From NCBI GenBank assembly GCA_937896495.1, contig CALBNQ010000222.1:1-17350 (forward strand): a stretch of DNA of 17,350 bases, written 5' to 3'. The translations under genes and the position numbers were made by a program. Below, in pieces: positions 106 through 6,542 of this stretch; position 1 is the first letter of the stretch, and every line of letters starts with the position of its first letter. Origin of the DNA: an uncultured archaeon. Its GTDB lineage: Archaea > Thermoproteota > Nitrososphaeria > Nitrososphaerales > Nitrosopumilaceae. Below the pieces are notes generated by a model that was given only the letters and a program-made list of their open reading frames with translations, had not been told where the DNA came from and searched no databases.

Positions 106-867
106 TTAGTTGACAGTGAATAAAGAAGACATTCCTGCCATAATATGATCATTAACATGACAATGATACAACCATGTACCAATATCATCAGGAATCATAT
201 CAACTACTTTGAGACTTGCTGGCATCAACTCCATTACATCAACTCGGTTATTATTCCACAATACAGTACTTCCATGCCAATGAGGAGTATGAAGATCAAC
301 TTCAGTTCCCATTCCAATTAGATACCACCGTACCTTATCGCCTTGATTCATGTCAAGTCCTGGTTGATTACCGTAAAGATAACCATTAATTCCATGCATC
401 AGATTACTTTCAGCAAATCCTTCATCTTCTAGAACTTCTTTATTATCACAAGTTTCTTGTGTAAATGTTTCTAAATTATCACACAGATAATTGCTAGAAT
501 TTTCATCAAAGACAGTAAACAAAGAAACAAATTCTCTATCCACATCTAATGGTCTACCGTTAGAATCTGCCATTCCTTTTGCAGTTACAATCATTGGCCC
601 AACAAGGCCTGAATTTGTATCCATTGGGGAATCCACATGAGAATGATACATCCACGTAATAGAACTAGGATCATTAGGACCAGGTCCTGCACGAGATGGA
701 ACTTTCCAGGTGTATTTGTGTGTATTACCAGGAGCAACAACCCCGTCTAATTTCTCAGAATCATCAGTGCCATCGTTATATGAAGCACCTTCAGATGTTT
801 TATCGTAAAAAACACCATGTGGATGCATACTATACGGTATTTGGGCATTATTTTTGAAAATTATTTT
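106..867 (-). pseudogene. 5'-truncated two-domain multicopper oxidase
   Basis: Cupredoxin-type multicopper oxidase of the laccase/nitrite-reductase-like kind common in thaumarchaea; such enzymes are secreted and oxidise metals or organic substrates while reducing O2. Counting from the first ATG (828), all four copper motifs are present: HPHG (residues 2-5), HSH (62-64), HTPHWHG (180-186) and HCHVNDHIMAGM (222-233), with type-1 ligands C223, H228 and M233. The in-frame sequence before that ATG, KIIFKNNAQIPYS, is typical first-domain sequence, so the homology begins upstream of the only start codon. No ATG, GTG or TTG lies further up before an in-frame TAG near 915, and the frame runs into the 3' end of phnE. 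The signal peptide and first strands of domain 1 are missing. I read it as a deletion remnant. It could still be translated from 828 by coupling to phnE, but the product would stay in the cytoplasm without a complete first domain. Confidence 0.7.
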
Positions 868-1646
868 GTTGTTACTTCCATACCATGTTGAGATTTGATG
901 ATGTATTTGTCTCTAATTTTTACACTTGCCCAATCAATTACTAAAACAGTAATCAATACAACCAACATAAAAATTGCAGCTTTACCATATTCAAAGAATT
1001 TGATGTAATTGATAATATAAAATCCAATTCCTCCAGCTCCTACCAATCCAAGTATACTTGTTTGGCGAATATTATAATCAAACATGTAAAGCATTTGACT
1101 TAGTAAATGAGATGCAGATTCGGGAATTACAACATAACTGATTAATTGTACTTTAGATACACCGATTGAGCTAACAGCATCCATCGGATCAGAATCAATT
1201 GTTTCAATTACCTCATATTGTAATTTCGCAATAAATCCAATAGTGTACATGGTGATTGCCAAAACGCCTGCAAACGTACCTGAACCAACCATAATTACAA
1301 ACAATAACGCCCATAAAATTGAAGGGAATGTACGAATTGCAGCTAAAAGTGCACGGATTGGGGCATAGACAAATTTACTATTCAAGTTTCTTGCAGATAG
1401 TAAACTAAGAGGTAAAGCAATTGCAATTCCAATCACAGTTCCAATAAATGCCATTTGAATTGTTTCAAACATTGCCCAAAGAGCAGTTGGGATGTACTTG
1501 GGTTCTACTGCAACCATCTCTTCAATAACAATCATAAGATTAGGTAATCCTTCAACAAATTCTACAGGACTTACTTCAACATTATAGGATGCAACTACAA
1601 GTAATGCAAGAATTATTCCAATTACAATATTATTTTTTGGTGTCAT
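861..1646 (-). CDS. phnE: PhnE-like ABC transporter permease
   Basis: Integral membrane permease of a PhnCDE-type importer for phosphonate, phosphite or a related oxyanion. The 261 residues match the family's usual length. The first hydrophobic segment is at about 7-21, with further segments near 62-84, 98-120, 124-142 and 218-238. The cytoplasmic coupling loop (about 145-178, EVIETIDSDPMDAV...GVSKVQ) would contact the ATPase. The signature NIRQTSILGLVGAGGIG at 192-208 is characteristic of PhnE. Its ATG lies inside the end of phnC (17-bp overlap), so the two are translationally coupled. The stop codon at 861-863 lies within sequence that also encodes the truncated oxidase in another frame, so the last few residues may have been altered by the rearrangement. 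Substrate specificity cannot be read from the sequence; no C-P lyase genes are nearby. Confidence 0.85.
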   Translation of the reverse strand: MTPKNNIVIGIILALLVVASYNVEVSPVEFVEGLPNLMIVIEEMVAVEPKYIPTALWAMFETIQMAFIGTVIGIAIALPLSLLSARNLNSKFVYAPIRALLAAIRTFPSILWALLFVIMVGSGTFAGVLAITMYTIGFIAKLQYEVIETIDSDPMDAVSSIGVSKVQLISYVVIPESASHLLSQMLYMFDYNIRQTSILGLVGAGGIGFYIINYIKFFEYGKAAIFMLVVLITVLVIDWASVKIRDKYIIKSQHGMEVTTK

Positions 1647-2460
1647 CAGAATACATCTCCATTATTTCTTCAGTAGTCATATCTCCAGTTTGAAAATCAA
1701 CAATATTATCACCTTCAACTCCAATCTCTAAAATTTTTCTTCCTTCTTTGATAACTGCAACTCTATTTGCATATTCCAATGCTAATTGCATATCATGATG
1801 AACCATAATTGCAGTCAAATTCATTCTTTTTTGAGCATCTACAATCAAATCCATTATTTCACGAGCAGTTACATGATCTAATTCTGAAACAATTTCATCA
1901 GCTAGTAAAATAGTAGGTTTTTGCATTAATGCTCTAGCAATTGCAACACGTCTCTTTTCCCCACCGCTTAACATGTAGATTTTCCTGTATTCTTTTCCCA
2001 TTAGCCCAACTAATTGAATTATTCTTTTTGCTTCTTTGATTTCATGTTCAGGAAATTTTTTCAACAAAGACTGAATTTTGTTTAGTCGAGGTAATGAACC
2101 AATTAGAACATTTTCAAGAATAGTAGTATTTTTTATCAAACCTAAATTTTGAGGAATATATCCAATTGTATGCATCATTTTTTTGAATTTTTTATCGTTC
2201 ATGTTAGGGGTGATGTAGTCAATTTTGATTATACCCTTACTGGGAATCATCATAGAATTCATCAATTTGAGTAAAGTCGATTTTCCAGAACCAGATTGTC
2301 CTACAATTGAATAATTTGTTCCCCTATCAATAGATAAATTGATTCCCTCTAATGCAAAATTTTTTGAATCATAAGATGTCCAAACATCACTCATTTGGAT
2401 AATTTTTTTTGTAGAGATTAATGAAAAAGGAGGGTTTTTGGTCATCTGAATTTGTTTCAT
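1630..2460 (-). CDS. phnC: PhnC-like ABC transporter ATPase
   Basis: Cytoplasmic ATPase that powers the PhnDCE importer. Visible motifs in order: Walker A GQSGSGKST (54-62), Q-loop PQN with Q104, signature LSGGEKRR (164-171, with E in place of the usual Q), Walker B ILLADE (184-189) and the H-loop VHHD (220-223). The 276 residues run slightly longer than many PhnC proteins because of an N-terminal tail of about 20 residues. A second ATG at codon 6 could be the true start; I keep the first. It lies 17 bp after the stop of phnD and overlaps phnE by 17 bp, so the three form one operon. It has about 30% sequence features in common with FbpC/PotA-type ATPases as well, but the neighbours decide the assignment. 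Confidence 0.85.
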   Translation of the reverse strand: MKQIQMTKNPPFSLISTKKIIQMSDVWTSYDSKNFALEGINLSIDRGTNYSIVGQSGSGKSTLLKLMNSMMIPSKGIIKIDYITPNMNDKKFKKMMHTIGYIPQNLGLIKNTTILENVLIGSLPRLNKIQSLLKKFPEHEIKEAKRIIQLVGLMGKEYRKIYMLSGGEKRRVAIARALMQKPTILLADEIVSELDHVTAREIMDLIVDAQKRMNLTAIMVHHDMQLALEYANRVAVIKEGRKILEIGVEGDNIVDFQTGDMTTEEIMEMYSDDTKK

Positions 2461-2477
2461 GTTCAGAATTCCAGTTT

Positions 2478-3566
2478 TTATTTGCTCTTGTTGTATTTGT
2501 CAAGAATTAATTGATCAAGCCCAGTTAATGCATTGATAAATTTGCCAAAGTCACCAATATGCATACTAGTTGTAGTTGGGACTAGTGCTTCAGCACCATA
2601 CAAATCCTTCAAGATATGATTATTCTCATCATAATTTAATTGGATTAATGCATGTACCAATGCTGTTTTAGATGATTCTGACATTTCAGAATTAACCATA
2701 AACACATGTGAAGGAACAGGTCCAATCGTTGTGACAGGTCGTAACTTCATTTGATCCTCTAATTCAAGGTATTTTTTTGGAGCAATGTCTGAACCAAATG
2801 CAACATCTACATTTCCGTTTAGAAGTAGCTGTAATGCTGCTTTGTATCCTCCAGCAAAAGTATAACTTTCAAAGTTTTTTGCAAGAGCAGATTCTAGAGC
2901 AACAATATCATCACCTTCAATGTTAATGTGACCTTCAGTAACCAAAGTTCCCATAGGTCGAACAAATCCAGAAGAACCAGTTATACTAGTAAAAGCAACT
3001 CGTTTACCAACAGTGTCTTCAATTGATTGAATAGAATCATTTTCAGCAAGCGTCCAAACAGTTGCTTGATAATTTACTTTTCCTGCAACAAGTTCAGCCA
3101 AAACAGCCTCTGCACCAGTTCTATGGTGAGTAATCCATGCAGGTCCAGTATCCATAAAGGCCGCATCAATGTGTCCAAATCGCATTCCTTCAATTATTGC
3201 CTCATATCCTGATGGGACAACAATCTCAACATCTACACCAAGTTCATTTTCAAGAAATAATTCCAAAGCTATAGCCTTAGGAGTAAGTTCATCTGCCTTC
3301 TCAATTGGAATAAATCCAATAGTTAATGTATCAATATCAAGTGATTTTGATCCAGATGAAACATCAATGATTTCATTTTCAACAAGAAATTTTATTCCAT
3401 TTAGAAAAGTGGAATCATCTACTGTACCATCAGCCCACCAACCAGCATTATTTTTAATCCATTCAGGGACTAAACTTTGTGCATGTACATCTTGAGACAA
3501 AGGTATTGTTGTAACACCAATTACTGCAACAACAGCAATTAATGTTAAAATAATTTGTCGTTTCAT
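2478..3566 (-). CDS. phnD: PhnD-like substrate-binding protein with N-terminal NAGWW domain
   Basis: Extracytoplasmic binding protein of the PhnD / phosphate-phosphonate periplasmic family, which captures the ligand for the phnCE transporter. Residues 1-29 are a signal peptide or anchor (hydrophobic 5-21, then VHAQ) with no lipobox cysteine. Residues 33-67 form the 'VPEWIKNNAGWWADGTVDD...FLNGIKFLVENEII' unit found in many secreted thaumarchaeal proteins. The binding domain runs from about 80 (LTIGFIPIEKADEL) to the end, with the family motifs SGYEAIIEGMRFGHIDAAFMDTGPAW (119-144, key residues Y121, D134, D139) and SITGSSGFVRP (194-204). At 362 residues it is longer than standard PhnD because of the extra N-terminal unit. 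It is first in the operon, with a good TATA box 34 nt upstream. The ligand is unproven: phosphonate, phosphite and other oxyanions are all possible. Confidence 0.85.
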   Translation of the reverse strand: MKRQIILTLIAVVAVIGVTTIPLSQDVHAQSLVPEWIKNNAGWWADGTVDDSTFLNGIKFLVENEIIDVSSGSKSLDIDTLTIGFIPIEKADELTPKAIALELFLENELGVDVEIVVPSGYEAIIEGMRFGHIDAAFMDTGPAWITHHRTGAEAVLAELVAGKVNYQATVWTLAENDSIQSIEDTVGKRVAFTSITGSSGFVRPMGTLVTEGHINIEGDDIVALESALAKNFESYTFAGGYKAALQLLLNGNVDVAFGSDIAPKKYLELEDQMKLRPVTTIGPVPSHVFMVNSEMSESSKTALVHALIQLNYDENNHILKDLYGAEALVPTTTSMHIGDFGKFINALTGLDQLILDKYNKSK

Positions 3567-3689: not shown

Positions 3690-4043
3690 TTATATTGATT
3701 TAGGATTTGAAGTATTAGGGTATAATATCAAAACAGGTTCTAATGTATCTAAAGTGATTTCAACTTTACCAATTCTACTTCTATATTGTTTAATTTTTTT
3801 ACCCTCTTTTGAAATAATGAATTTATCAACTTCTGCAAGAGTAAGATCATCTAAGGTGGATAGTGTTTTGTAAACAGTTGAAATTGAAATTTTTAACTCC
3901 TCTGCAATTTGTGTTGCATCTTTTGATTCTTCTTTAATTGAAAATAATACAGCCCTAGTACACACGCTACTTAGTGATTCTATAATTTTTTGTGTAACGT
4001 CAAACTCAGATAATTGAATAATTGTGGGTTTTGACATTATCAT
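3690..4043 (-). CDS. winged-helix transcriptional regulator (second of a tandem pair)
   Basis: Small DNA-binding protein with one winged helix-turn-helix domain of the ArsR/TrmB kind. The recognition region is DATQIAEELKISISTVYKTLSTLDDL, followed by a wing with VDKFIISKEGKKIKQYRS. It is a paralogue of the gene just upstream: both share a DVTQK-I-E-L segment, the ISTVYK/LSSVYK helix, the L(E/D)(E/D)LTL linker and a C-terminal P-LIL-PN tail. The frame opens with a GTG at 4044-4046 that overlaps the previous stop; ATG codons follow at 4041-4043 (TGATG overlap, chosen here) and 4035-4037. It is translationally coupled to its paralogue and sits 123 bp upstream of phnD, so control of phnDCE or of themselves is plausible. 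No effector domain is visible. Confidence 0.75.
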   Translation of the reverse strand: MIMSKPTIIQLSEFDVTQKIIESLSSVCTRAVLFSIKEESKDATQIAEELKISISTVYKTLSTLDDLTLAEVDKFIISKEGKKIKQYRSRIGKVEITLDTLEPVLILYPNTSNPKSI

Positions 4044-4375
4044 CACACGTTAGGAACTAAAATCAGTGAAGGTTCAGGCTTTTTTATAGATATGTCTGCA
4101 GTCTTTACACGACTCTTGTATACTTTGTATTTTCTACCTTTATCAGATAGCATCCACTTTTCGATTTCTATTAAAGTGAGTTCTTCTAAATCTGCCAATT
4201 TTTTATACACAGAGCTGAGGGGGATTTTGAGTTTATCAGATAGTTCAGCTGCTGTTTTACCTTGTTTTATCATTGAGAATAATATTGCACGAGATTCTGA
4301 ATCAGCAAGTGTTTCTATTACTTTTTGTGTAACATCATATTTTTTCAATTGAGGTAAGGTAAATCGTCTGGACAC
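4043..4375 (-). CDS. winged-helix transcriptional regulator (first of a tandem pair)
   Basis: A 110-residue single-domain winged-helix protein with the helix-turn-helix at about residues 41-66 (KTAAELSDKLKIPLSSVYKKL) and a basic wing (SDKGRKYKVYKSRVK). It starts with GTG; no ATG lies in frame near it. The GTG is 27 nt from the centre of a strong TATA box, so the mRNA would be almost leaderless. The next gene overlaps its stop and is a diverged copy, so the two may form a heterodimer or act separately on related sites. The duplication is old: only the HTH core and the flanking DVTQK and LIL-PN motifs remain clearly alike. The regulated genes are not known from the sequence; phnDCE and cbtB are the nearest candidates. 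Confidence 0.75.
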   Translation of the reverse strand: MSRRFTLPQLKKYDVTQKVIETLADSESRAILFSMIKQGKTAAELSDKLKIPLSSVYKKLADLEELTLIEIEKWMLSDKGRKYKVYKSRVKTADISIKKPEPSLILVPNV

Positions 4376-4511: not shown

Positions 4512-4727
4512 CTAATGACAAGGAAATCCTGCTGCATGACGCATGTCATGAGTTAGTTCATGGATGTACAAATCTGCATAAGCTTGCTCTCCAATGACTA
4601 GACTGAAGATGTGACCTTGATCATAACCAACAACAAATAGTCCGACTGCAAATACTATTGCTAATGCAATAATTGCAAGTTTTGGGACATCATTTTTTGA
4701 TACACTGATTTGTCTTGATTGAGACAT
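4512..4727 (-). CDS. cbtB: CbtB-like small cobalt-transport subunit (copy 1)
   Basis: A 71-residue membrane protein of the CbtB family, proposed to act with CbtA in cobalt uptake. It has a short polar N-terminus, one membrane segment (about 17-36, AIIALAIVFAVGLFVVGY), then a His-rich tail: DQGH (37-40), HELTHD (56-61) and the C-terminal HAAGFPCH (64-71). These His and Cys residues are the likely metal ligands. The last 54 codons are identical at every base to the second cbtB at 5614-5829, while the first 17 residues differ. It lies 152 bp downstream of cbtA and has its own TATA box at 4747-4757, preceded by TCATCCAA, half of the operator found at the other cbtB. The HExxH string suggests a protease motif, but in this family it belongs to a transporter tail. 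Confidence 0.85.
   Translation of the reverse strand: MSQSRQISVSKNDVPKLAIIALAIVFAVGLFVVGYDQGHIFSLVIGEQAYADLYIHELTHDMRHAAGFPCH
4514..4678. repeat. 165-bp perfect direct repeat, copy 1 (inside cbtB copy 1)
   Basis: This block is identical without any mismatch to 5616-5780. It covers the last two bases of codon 17, all 54 following codons and the first base of the stop codon. Outside it the two cbtB genes diverge at once, including different stop codons (TAG here, TGA there). Identity at every third codon position points to recent gene conversion or duplication, not selection on the protein. Confidence 0.95.
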
Positions 4728-4746: not shown

Positions 4747-4767
4747 TATATTTAAAGACTTGGATGA
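4747..4767 (-). promoter_or_regulatory. promoter of cbtB copy 1 with TCATCCAA half-operator
   Basis: Read on the minus strand, TCATCCAA (4767-4760) stands directly before the TATA box CTTTAAATATA (4757-4747), which is centred 26 nt upstream of the ATG. The same octamer occupies the same place before the TATA boxes of the other cbtB and of the divergent DUF4443-like gene. Confidence 0.6.
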
Positions 4768-4879: not shown

Positions 4880-5599
4880 TCAATGAATAGAATTTTTTAC
4901 ATCGGGTCTAAATTTCATCCACAAACTACCAAAAATAACAGCCAATGACGCCCAAAATATGGTAACTGCAACAACAGACATTGCTCTAAATCCATTTACC
5001 AGATCCATAGGTGCTGTAACTTCATCTGGATTTGGAGGCATCAATACAAAAAGTATTGAGATGAATAAGCCATATCCGACAAATGCAAGAATTTTTTTTG
5101 ATTGAAGTTTTTTGTAGATTTGAAAAAATCCAACTGCAGAGAATCCAGATATGGCAATAAATGATAAAAAGAGAATAGAACGAAGTACAACAGTTTCTCC
5201 ATCACCAACAGTTGGAGGATTTGCAGGATATTTCAAAAATGGAATAATGTAGATAGTAATCCACATTACTGCTGCAAGTATAATTGATTTTTTCATGTCA
5301 TTTCCAGGTAAAGTATTTCTAGATAATACATAGACAATGCCAAATAATCCACCCATACTAGTTCCTAAAATTGCACCAGCTAGAACCTGCCCACTTTTTT
5401 GCCAATCTCTGTATGCATCATATTCAACCCAAAATGCAAGAGTATCTTCTTCCTCACCTGATGCAAACAGATTTTGATTCTCAATTCCAATTGCTTCATC
5501 CAAGTATGGTTCAACAATAACTAAATTAGTAACACCATGAATAGTGCCAGCTAAAGCACCTGAAAACAAAACAATTGCTAAAAATAAAATGGTCTTCAT
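4880..5599 (-). CDS. cbtA: CbtA-like cobalt transporter subunit
   Basis: Integral membrane protein of the CbtA family (probable cobalt transporter), 239 residues, the usual family length. Hydrophobic segments at about 3-28, 72-93, 105-122, 140-161, 168-187 and 206-228 give five or six membrane spans. The conserved family motif FLKYPANPPTVGD is at 121-133, and H21, E30 and the acidic loop 48-61 are possible metal-facing residues. It lies 14 bp after cbtB copy 2 in the same direction, so the two form an operon; a second cbtB follows 152 bp downstream with its own promoter. Cobalt is the expected cargo from the family name and from the cobalamin synthesis of these archaea, but transport has not been shown here and nickel cannot be excluded. 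Confidence 0.85.
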   Translation of the reverse strand: MKTILFLAIVLFSGALAGTIHGVTNLVIVEPYLDEAIGIENQNLFASGEEEDTLAFWVEYDAYRDWQKSGQVLAGAILGTSMGGLFGIVYVLSRNTLPGNDMKKSIILAAVMWITIYIIPFLKYPANPPTVGDGETVVLRSILFLSFIAISGFSAVGFFQIYKKLQSKKILAFVGYGLFISILFVLMPPNPDEVTAPMDLVNGFRAMSVVAVTIFWASLAVIFGSLWMKFRPDVKNSIH

Positions 5600-5613
5600 A
5601 TTATATCATCATC

Positions 5614-5829
5614 TCAATGACAAGGAAATCCTGCTGCATGACGCATGTCATGAGTTAGTTCATGGATGTACAAATCTGCATAAGCTTGCTCTCCAATGAC
5701 TAGACTGAAGATGTGACCTTGATCATAACCAACAACAAATAGTCCGACTGCAAATACTATTGCTAATGCAATAATTGCAAAGACAGGAATTTCTGATTTA
5801 CTCTTTGTGATTTGTGTTGGACTAGACAT
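5614..5829 (-). CDS. cbtB: CbtB-like small cobalt-transport subunit (copy 2)
   Basis: Partner of the CbtA encoded just downstream. Its 71 residues have the same plan as copy 1: a polar N-terminus (MSSPTQITKSKSEIP), one membrane span at 18-36 and the His-rich tail HELTHD...HAAGFPCH. From residue 18 on it is identical to copy 1 in protein and in DNA, whereas residues 1-17 match only in pattern. It is the first gene of the cbtB-cbtA pair. Its promoter lies back to back with that of the DUF4443-like regulator, and the perfect palindrome at 5864-5882 abuts its TATA box. The tight spacing to cbtA (14 bp) suggests this copy is the ancestral partner and the one at 4512 the duplicate. Confidence 0.85.
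   Translation of the reverse strand: MSSPTQITKSKSEIPVFAIIALAIVFAVGLFVVGYDQGHIFSLVIGEQAYADLYIHELTHDMRHAAGFPCH
5616..5780. repeat. 165-bp perfect direct repeat, copy 2 (inside cbtB copy 2)
   Basis: Partner of 4514-4678, offset by exactly 1102 bp, same orientation, no mismatch. Recombination between the two copies would delete cbtA and leave one hybrid cbtB. Confidence 0.95.
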
Positions 5830-5851
5830 ACAATTGCATCAAAATTATTTT

Positions 5852-5863
5852 AATTAATAAATT
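5852..5863 (-). promoter_or_regulatory. TATA box of the cbtB-cbtA operon
   Basis: AATTTATTAATT on the minus strand, centred about 28 nt upstream of the cbtB copy 2 ATG and directly next to the palindrome at 5864-5882. Confidence 0.5.
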
Positions 5864-5882
5864 ATTGGATGATTCATCCAAT
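5864..5882. promoter_or_regulatory. 19-bp perfect palindromic operator between cbtB and the DUF4443-like gene
   Basis: ATTGGATGATTCATCCAAT: two 9-base arms around a single central T. It fills the space between the TATA boxes of two divergent genes (5852-5863 leftward, 5882-5889 rightward), the position where a bound dimer would block both. Its arm TCATCCAA recurs before the TATA box of cbtB copy 1. Confidence 0.7.
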
Positions 5883-5889
5883 TTATATA
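5882..5889 (+). promoter_or_regulatory. TATA box of the DUF4443-like regulator
   Basis: TTTATATA centred 27 nt before the ATG at 5913, which predicts a leaderless mRNA. Its first base is the last base of the palindromic operator, so self-regulation is likely. Confidence 0.65.
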
Positions 5890-5912
5890 AGAAATTATAC
5901 TATTAGGCGTAA

Positions 5913-6542
5913 ATGAAAAAAGAGATAAAAAAATTATTAGATATTGTAACAAGAAAAGGTTCTAGTAAAATTTTGAGTTTTAGTACACCGCATGTTTTCA
6001 AAGCATTACAAATTCTTGATGAACAAAAGTATGTGAGTAGAATAACATTTTGTAATGAATTGCACATCGGAGAAGGTGCAGTTAGAACATTGATTTCACA
6101 TTTGAAAGAAGATGAAATTGTAGATACAATCAAAGCTGGCACATTTCTAACAACAAAAGGTAAAAAATTCACAAAGAAATTTTCAGAGGTAATTGCAAAA
6201 CAATGCACGATAAAATCATGTAATATTGCTAGAGAAAAATATAATCATGTATTTCTCTTAAAAAACTATTCAAAGATAATTTGTAATGGAATGGATCAAA
6301 GAGATTATGCAATTATGTATGGTGCAAAAAGTGCAACAACACTATCATTTGAGAATGGAAAATTTGTATTTCCAAATGAAACTGATGATGCATTACTAGA
6401 AGATGTTAAAACAAAAAATATTTTGCTTAAAAAATTAAAACCTGAAGAACAAGATATCGTGATAATTGCCTCGTCAAATGATTCTTTTGTATCAGAGATT
6501 TCTGCAATAAATTCAGTTCTAACAACTTTGGCTACAAATTAA
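5913..6542 (+). CDS. DUF4443-like winged-helix regulator, divergent from cbtBA
   Basis: A 209-residue putative transcription factor. Residues about 20-90 form a winged helix-turn-helix (FKALQILDEQKYVSRITFCNELHIGEGAVRTLISHLKED, then a wing ending in KGKKFTKKF). Residues about 95-209 form a second domain (YNHVFLLKNY, GMDQRDYAIMYGAKSATTLSFENGKFVFP, EEQDIVIIAS) that resembles the ligand-binding part of archaeal DUF4443 proteins; that family name is from memory and not verified. C98 and C103 form a CX4C pair and C124 lies nearby, so metal sensing is possible. It is transcribed away from cbtB-cbtA, and the shared 83-bp region contains a perfect palindrome touching both TATA boxes. From this I infer that it represses itself and the cbt genes, perhaps in response to cobalt, nickel or cobalamin. 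Confidence 0.7.
   Translation: MKKEIKKLLDIVTRKGSSKILSFSTPHVFKALQILDEQKYVSRITFCNELHIGEGAVRTLISHLKEDEIVDTIKAGTFLTTKGKKFTKKFSEVIAKQCTIKSCNIAREKYNHVFLLKNYSKIICNGMDQRDYAIMYGAKSATTLSFENGKFVFPNETDDALLEDVKTKNILLKKLKPEEQDIVIIASSNDSFVSEISAINSVLTTLATN

Follow-up and report, generated by a model that had tools for sequence, protein, structure and literature searches.

A palindrome between cbtB and a DUF4443 gene

The stretch of DNA from a marine archaeon analysed here (17,350 nucleotides, referred to as the window) carries a perfect palindrome between two divergently transcribed genes, and the question that it raises is whether this palindrome is an operator, which protein would read it and which genes would be under its control. 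The 19-bp palindrome, ATTGGATGATTCATCCAAT at 5864–5882, sits between a cbtB gene on the minus strand (5614–5829) and a gene on the plus strand (5913–6542) encoding a 209-aa protein with a MarR-like winged helix and a DUF4443 effector domain. It was the sole perfect palindrome with arms of at least 8 and a gap of 0 or 1 in the whole window, and at up to three mismatches it occurred once, against 0.03 occurrences expected from shuffles of the window. Inside the 19-mer lies the 17-bp core TTGGAT-N5-ATCCAA (5865–5881), referred to below as the dyad. The TATA box of the regulator gene, TTTATATAA (5882–5890, plus strand), follows this core with a gap of 0, and the TATA box of the operator-linked cbtB-cbtA operon, TTTATTAA (5854–5861, minus strand), lies 2 nt off the 19-mer and 3 nt off the core. 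The sequence-only reading of this DNA, which had described the palindrome, its cbt and DUF4443-like neighbours and TATA boxes touching it on both sides, was borne out on the first two points and, for the TATA boxes, on the regulator side only.

The products of both cbtB genes of the window, the operator-linked copy and a second copy with its own promoter (4512–4727, minus strand), scored above the Pfam cut-off for CbtB (PF09489), and one protein, encoded by cbtA (4880–5599, minus strand), scored above that for CbtA (PF09490, E 1.9e-53). For the NCBIfam equivalogs TIGR02458 and TIGR02459 the Cbt proteins of the window stayed far under the cut-off, the two CbtB proteins reaching 29.4 and 28.1 bits for TIGR02459 where 64.4 are required. 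The two CbtB proteins are 86% identical; by eye, the DNA of their genes is near-identical over the last ~165 nt and differs in the starts and promoters, as if gene conversion had homogenised the copies. Two tandem genes for small winged-helix proteins (3690–4375), Sta1/Lrs14/TrmB-like with scores under those cut-offs, stand between cbtB and a PhnD/PhnC/PhnE-like ABC operon (861–3566).

The regulator protein passed the DUF4443 model (PF14544) with 83.3 bits, against a gathering score of 27, and matched the fold of a solved relative (2p8t), its N-terminal domain being PH0730-like. The structural match to MarR-like winged helices covered about residues 1–95 only, and the Pfam MarR model gave no match at E 0.01.

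Conservation of the dyad in ammonia oxidisers

Searches for the regulator returned 45 of 95 genomes of the same genus, and after a 43-aa fragment in G073 had been left out 44 were taken as regulator-positive; CbtA was present in 82 of the 95. The promoters of cbtB and of the regulator were read in the returned loci and in 52 further stretches, which gave a readable cbtB promoter for 43 of the 44 regulator-positive genomes and for 34 regulator-negative ones. The dyad, with at most one mismatch, was found at cbtB in 41 of the 43 regulator-positive genomes and in none of the 34 regulator-negative genomes. Three of the 44 for which no cbtB dyad was counted (G045, G065 and G048) carried an exact dyad before the regulator gene instead. 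The sequence-only reading had staked itself on such a search upstream of cbtB and of the regulator in related genomes, and the palindrome survived it: within the genus it is conserved as a candidate operator that is linked to the regulator.

The dyad follows cbtB rather than the regulator gene. In G030, G040, G054 and G071 the regulator gene is displaced; the dyad remains at cbtB there and the regulator promoter is without it. Second cbtBA copies in G008 and G093 carry the dyad with no regulator adjoining. In a 400-kb sample of G006 none of 306 ORFs had such a dyad, at up to one mismatch, in the 120 nt upstream. Exact TTGGAT-N5-ATCCAA was present in at least one copy in 64 of the 95 genomes, with many copies away from the cbt genes; the 12-bp pattern alone is therefore not that rare, and its place and inner sequence matter. 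A phylogenetic test on the CbtA tree pointed in the right direction and was weak, since it offered just four independent supported contrasts, 2.4 of them concordant on average and none discordant (p not significant). The apparent discordance of G030 and G040 in that tree comes solely from the cbtA piece used for them, which held no dyad-bearing cbtB promoter.

The same arrangement was found in named genomes of Nitrosarchaeum, Nitrosotenuis, Nitrosopelagicus and Nitrososphaera, the dyads of the last having one mismatch (L239) or two (L241). Cenarchaeum gave two loci, with one mismatch in the cbtB dyad of one and three in that of the other. In four of ten Nitrosarchaeum loci (L194, L197, L203 and L206), and in some others, cbtB is preceded by TTGGAC-N5-GTCCAA, a variant altered in both arms, as is expected if a dimer reads both.

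The half-site at the second cbtB promoter

The core promoter of the second cbtB copy, TCATCCAA-N3-TTTAAATA (4749–4767, minus strand), had been counted into the regulon on account of one palindrome half, the octamer TCATCCAA, at 4760–4767; its closest match to the dyad has four mismatches. The window holds five copies of this octamer (4760, 5496, 5865, 5874 and 10257) and not four as first claimed, the copy within the cbtA coding region (5496–5503) having been overlooked. Shuffles of the window gave a mean of 1.55 copies, and 4 of 200 reached five. Across the genus, cbtB promoters that lack the dyad mostly carry ATCCAAGAGCTTAAATATATTCA or close variants of it, and among such promoters the ATCCAA half was present in 14 of 35 where the genome lacks the regulator and in 11 of 18 where it encodes one. 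Since ATCCAA is equally placed in genomes that have no DUF4443 gene, we rejected the half-site as a target of the regulator; it is explained by the cbtB core promoter ATCCAAGAGCTTAAATATATTCA and provides no evidence for binding.

The 15-mer CCAAGAGCTTAAATA, taken from this cbtB core promoter, was found with at most one mismatch at 53 places in 51 of the 95 genomes, counted irrespective of the gene, one of them (G049:C128) probably not being at cbtB. A general promoter signal of ATCCAA before the TATA box was rejected as well, because it occurred at −41 to −37 in only 2 of 307 G006 genes, against a permutation mean of 0.75. The best 24 nt of promoter held 26.0 bits for regulator-negative cbtB, 16.0 bits for dsbA (n 26) and 35.8 bits for erf1 (10 rows), and in view of the last value that of cbtB is not clearly exceptional. 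Possibly the ATCCAAGAGCTTAAATATATTCA shared by dyad-less cbtB promoters is a second, older cis element.

Candidate operator sites at B12 and cobalt genes of other Thermoproteota

A search of 300 genomes of the phylum with the pattern TTGGATWANCCATCCAA, made blind to genes, gave 39 sites in 31 genomes, and the reversed pattern, used as a control, gave none. The pattern was built from sites seen earlier in some of the same genomes, and 25 newly fetched loci leave those out. By sequence match, 20 of the 25 were at B12/cobalt-type genes: cbiB/btuF, cbiB/cobN, cobD/btuF, btuF, btuC, ECF-S/DUF4430, cbtBA and regulator/cbtB. Ten proteins from the new loci were checked by family models, which agreed, some with scores under the curated cut-offs. 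Of these 20 loci, seven are ammonia-oxidiser cbt loci, and in six the match is limited to BtuF- or BtuC-type genes, whose families (PF01497, FecCD) also serve iron; among the loci from other lineages, 13 of 15 were at B12/cobalt-type genes. The count becomes 21 of 25 if a cbiNQO-like set named by eye (L412) is included, and the misses were L410/L440 and L417. At least 15 of the 39 sites, in at least 10 of the 31 genomes, had a DUF4443 gene no farther than 10 kb away, against ~0.5 expected (coordinates compared by hand); three of these ten genomes, G166, G214 and G346, are close relatives. One of the 25 new loci, L405, comes from G346 and so from a near relative of a genome already used for the pattern, G166. 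Loci L273–L302 and L363–L368 and some of the 39 sites (G214, G346, G143 and G349) were left out of the one-by-one reading.

Candidate operator sites thus concentrate at B12 and cobalt genes and form a regulon by gene content. In other Thermoproteota the dyad stands before cbiMN, cobN, cbiB, cobD, btuF/btuC-type and ECF-S/DUF4430 genes. The proposal of a regulon made up of the cbt genes and the regulator alone was right as to the unit of regulator, operator and cbt genes, and too small in scope.

The pattern TTGGA-N7-TCCAA at up to one mismatch gave 64 matches in 71 loci against 23 expected; 11 were exact, four of them in ammonia oxidisers (L243, L329 and twice in L330). Matches lie exactly between the divergent cobZ-like plus regulator and btuFC operons in L305, between btuCD-regulator and cobD in L334 (one mismatch to the 12-bp core) and between the regulator and an ECF-S gene in L337. 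In G166 (2.15 Mb) exact TTGGAT-N5-ATCCAA occurs three times, always within 9 kb around the B12-linked DUF4443 gene of that genome; one copy lies between cbiB and cobN, and the other two separate the regulator operon from a chelatase gene. G371 has a single exact dyad, at L305; G180 has two, at a cobN-like gene and at cbiMN; G316 has two, one at cbiMN and one within a gene; and G299 has one within a gene, together with one-mismatch sites at L334 and at an ECF-S gene. Of the exact sites read, those of L378, L381, L387 and L395 lie inside ORFs and that of L379 at an unrelated gene.

An overlapping double operator, TTGGATGGATAATCCATCCAA, was seen at L397:5043 (G316) and L399:4087 (G371), ahead of two genes, for 613 and 152 aa, the second being DUF4430-like by eye and with no Pfam match. 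The 613-aa protein (L401:1380–3221, G316), which likewise had no Pfam match, adjoins a btuFC-ATPase-DUF4443 set and is a candidate for a new B12-related envelope protein.

Neighbourhoods of DUF4443 genes

With DUF4443 in 236 of the 300 Thermoproteota genomes, its presence alone is not diagnostic at the level of the phylum. We fetched 60 DUF4443 neighbourhoods, a few of them from ammonia oxidisers; 40 were picked by family and several B12 queries derive from them, so that counts of B12-type neighbours are partly circular. The family is not uniform, since many of its genes adjoin GPN-ATPase-like or FtsY genes in the absence of any B12 context. A large branch adjoins a GPN-loop-ATPase-like gene (L303, L304, L307, L309–L313 and others) and another adjoins FtsY, and no dyad at up to two mismatches was detected just upstream of DUF4443 genes of these two kinds. 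The DUF4443 genes with B12-type neighbours form a set scattered over the DUF4443 tree; in that tree row L167 is an antisense ORF and its long branch an artefact; the regulator query from L320 is an antisense ORF too. Such neighbours were BtuC, a corrinoid ATPase and CobD in L334, BtuC/BtuD in L333, BtuF/BtuC/ATPase in L308, CobS, CobY and a CobT-like gene in L320, and ECF-S with DUF4430 in L314, L315, L332, L337, L339, L358 and L360.

CobD, CobS, CbiM, CbiN, CbiB and CobN were assigned over curated cut-offs. The BtuC, BtuD and BtuF equivalogs, CobY and the CobT-like match remained under them, with BtuC, BtuD, BtuF and CobY still the best hits, as did DUF4430 in L337 and L408, ECF-S in L388 and L408 and the partial CobN of L391. 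CbiN, CbiQ and CbiO in L441 were named by eye, and the names CobZ and GAD are presumptive; DUF4430 we take to be a transcobalamin-like C-terminal domain. Of the 31 genomes that have both, 5 had a DUF4430 gene no more than about 2 kb away from DUF4443 (37 hits; ~0.1 expected, estimated by hand), three of the five being known beforehand.

A candidate repressor of B12 and cobalt genes

In our judgement the DUF4443 winged-helix protein is probably the repressor of an archaeal B12/cobalt regulon that has been cut down to cbtBA in ammonia oxidisers, a reading drawn from sequence comparison. The palindrome would be the operator of this divergently transcribed protein, a dimeric winged-helix repressor which, when bound, would cover the TFB-recognition position of its own promoter and abut that of cbtB, and the proposed consequence is that both cbtB-cbtA and the regulator would be shut off. 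The unit of ammonia oxidisers would be the reduced form of an older Thermoproteota regulon, whose operator elsewhere is often TTGGATWANCCATCCAA and whose targets would comprise genes for cobalt uptake (cbiMN, cbtBA), for cobalt insertion and corrin assembly (cobN, cbiB, cobD) and for corrinoid salvage (btuF/btuC-type, ECF-S with DUF4430). The most likely signal would be a corrinoid end product acting as co-repressor, and the target genes would be switched on by a shortage of B12 or cobalt. Binding, dimer formation, repression and the role of a co-repressor are properties that we infer for the DUF4443 protein. Because the dyad belongs to the wider B12/cobalt gene set of the Thermoproteota, it suggests corrinoid sensing at least as much as cobalt sensing. 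We give about even chances to a broader proposal, that the B12-linked DUF4443 branches are the corrinoid protein sensor of the Thermoproteota. They would do in archaea what the cobalamin riboswitch does in bacteria, with an effector domain of GAD-like type and with one operator kept from Bathyarchaeota-like lineages to the ammonia-oxidising archaea. A GAD-like domain is not known to bind corrinoids.

A metal ion (Co or Ni) as effector in place of a corrinoid is a tenable if unlikely alternative. The window's own genome has the exact dyad once, at the proposed cobalt transporter, and two TTGGATWANCCATCCAA sites in other ammonia oxidisers stand at metal genes, a NicO transporter (L422) and a CsoR-like gene (L421), whose membership of the regulon is unsure. 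Sites outside the ammonia oxidisers, however, are mainly at genes for corrin assembly and for BtuF/BtuC and ECF-S/DUF4430 uptake. The cysteines also argue against a metal: the sequence-only reading had singled out a CX4C pair (C98 and C103) in the regulator, and among 34 aligned sequences these positions are cysteine in 21 and 26, respectively, so that the pair is not conserved and we rejected a CX4C metal site.

With the same operator and regulator, cbtB might instead be activated, the protein helping TFB from just upstream of the TFB recognition element, while the regulator represses itself. We regard this as improbable, although the asymmetry of the spacing would suit it, the dyad standing 3–4 nt from the cbtB TATA box in 40 of 41 distinct dyad-bearing promoters of the genus and 0 nt from that of the regulator in 36 of 37 (G079 is the exception on both sides). 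In eight promoters from outside the ammonia oxidisers the dyad lies downstream of the TATA box, between it and the start codon (L392, the btuF side of L305, L386, L396, L391, the cobN side of L383, L339 and the ecfS side of L314; TATA boxes by eye), which speaks against activation; the remaining promoters read there had the TATA box downstream of the dyad or were unclear, again by eye. Activation is also at odds with the cbtB promoters of regulator-negative genomes, which retain a good TATA box.

It is improbable that another DNA-binding protein, such as MarR-DUF7839, reads the dyad and that DUF4443 merely travels along. In its favour, operator sites were found at ECF-S/DUF4430 in G145 (L408/L436) and G363 (L407/L437), where full-length DUF4443 was not found even with a close query. 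Four genomes of the genus of these two (G192, G293, G341 and G305) have DUF4443 and gave no TTGGATWANCCATCCAA site. A MarR-DUF7839 gene faces cbiMN across the dyad in G316 (L394:3177–4028), and one in G166 (L402:3038–3853) stands directly before DUF4443 on the same strand. Within the genus, on the other hand, the presence of DUF4443 tracks the dyad, and DUF4443 is usually the gene that adjoins the operator. A search for PF25211 was positive in no more than 2 of 20 genomes and in none of 11 ammonia oxidisers; on this count MarR-DUF7839 was rejected as a general binder of the dyad. PF25211 is also present in M. jannaschii, Haloferax volcanii and Methanosarcina acetivorans, and MarR-DUF7839 may be a second archaeal B12/cobalt regulator. 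A chance palindrome, or the plain symmetry of two facing promoters, would be in keeping with the presence of ATCCAA next to TATA in cbtB promoters without the regulator, but it is refuted, with a negligible probability left to it, by the conservation data (41 of 43 against 0 of 34), by 39 sites against 0 in the control and by the variant altered in both arms.

Comparison with known systems

CsoR/RcnR, NikR and MntR are the usual regulators of cobalt, nickel and manganese, and the likeness of the DUF4443 protein to them would be the control of metal transport genes. It differs from them in having no conserved cysteine pair, and in a comparison with MntR the likeness was limited to the winged helix (E 0.29–0.52). 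Winged-helix repressors of the MarR type and CggR also count among the nearest known systems. PH0730 of Pyrococcus horikoshii (PDB 2p8t) is called hypothetical; our data gave it no B12 link, and the portions of the open-licence literature available to us held no function for it beyond the family name in a table. CbtA and CbtB are a proposed cobalt transporter; the proteins of the window pass the Pfam models and fall short of the NCBIfam equivalogs, and cobalt transport by them is putative.

We found no paper on DUF4443 in the open-licence literature, and a description may exist elsewhere. The accessible parts of that literature contained no account of such a regulation of CbtA in Nitrosopumilus, and nothing relevant on archaeal B12/cobalt regulators, the available text of PMC8123684, PMC8281238 and PMC2770081 included. 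If the proposed repressor is correct, some members of the DUF4443 domain family, which has no assigned function and occurs in 236 of the 300 Thermoproteota genomes, would gain one. With a protein, a 17-bp operator and a set of genes named, this proposed control of B12 and cobalt lends itself to direct testing.

In bacteria the cobalamin riboswitch controls genes for cobalt uptake, corrin synthesis and corrinoid transport. This range of genes is covered in part by PMC8123684, which ranks ammonia-oxidising archaea with the chief sources of B12 in ocean and soil; PMC8281238 describes the B12 genes of bacteria as riboswitch-controlled and archaeal genomes as having only sporadic riboswitches. No cobalamin riboswitch was matched in Rfam at the gathering score in the window or in 11 B12/cobalt-type loci. 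The dyad and DUF4443 may represent an archaeal control of B12 genes without the RNA switches of bacteria. The likeness between the riboswitch and the dyad regulon lies in the kind of genes controlled, whereas the riboswitch is an RNA aptamer in the leader and the element described here is a DNA dyad on the promoter.
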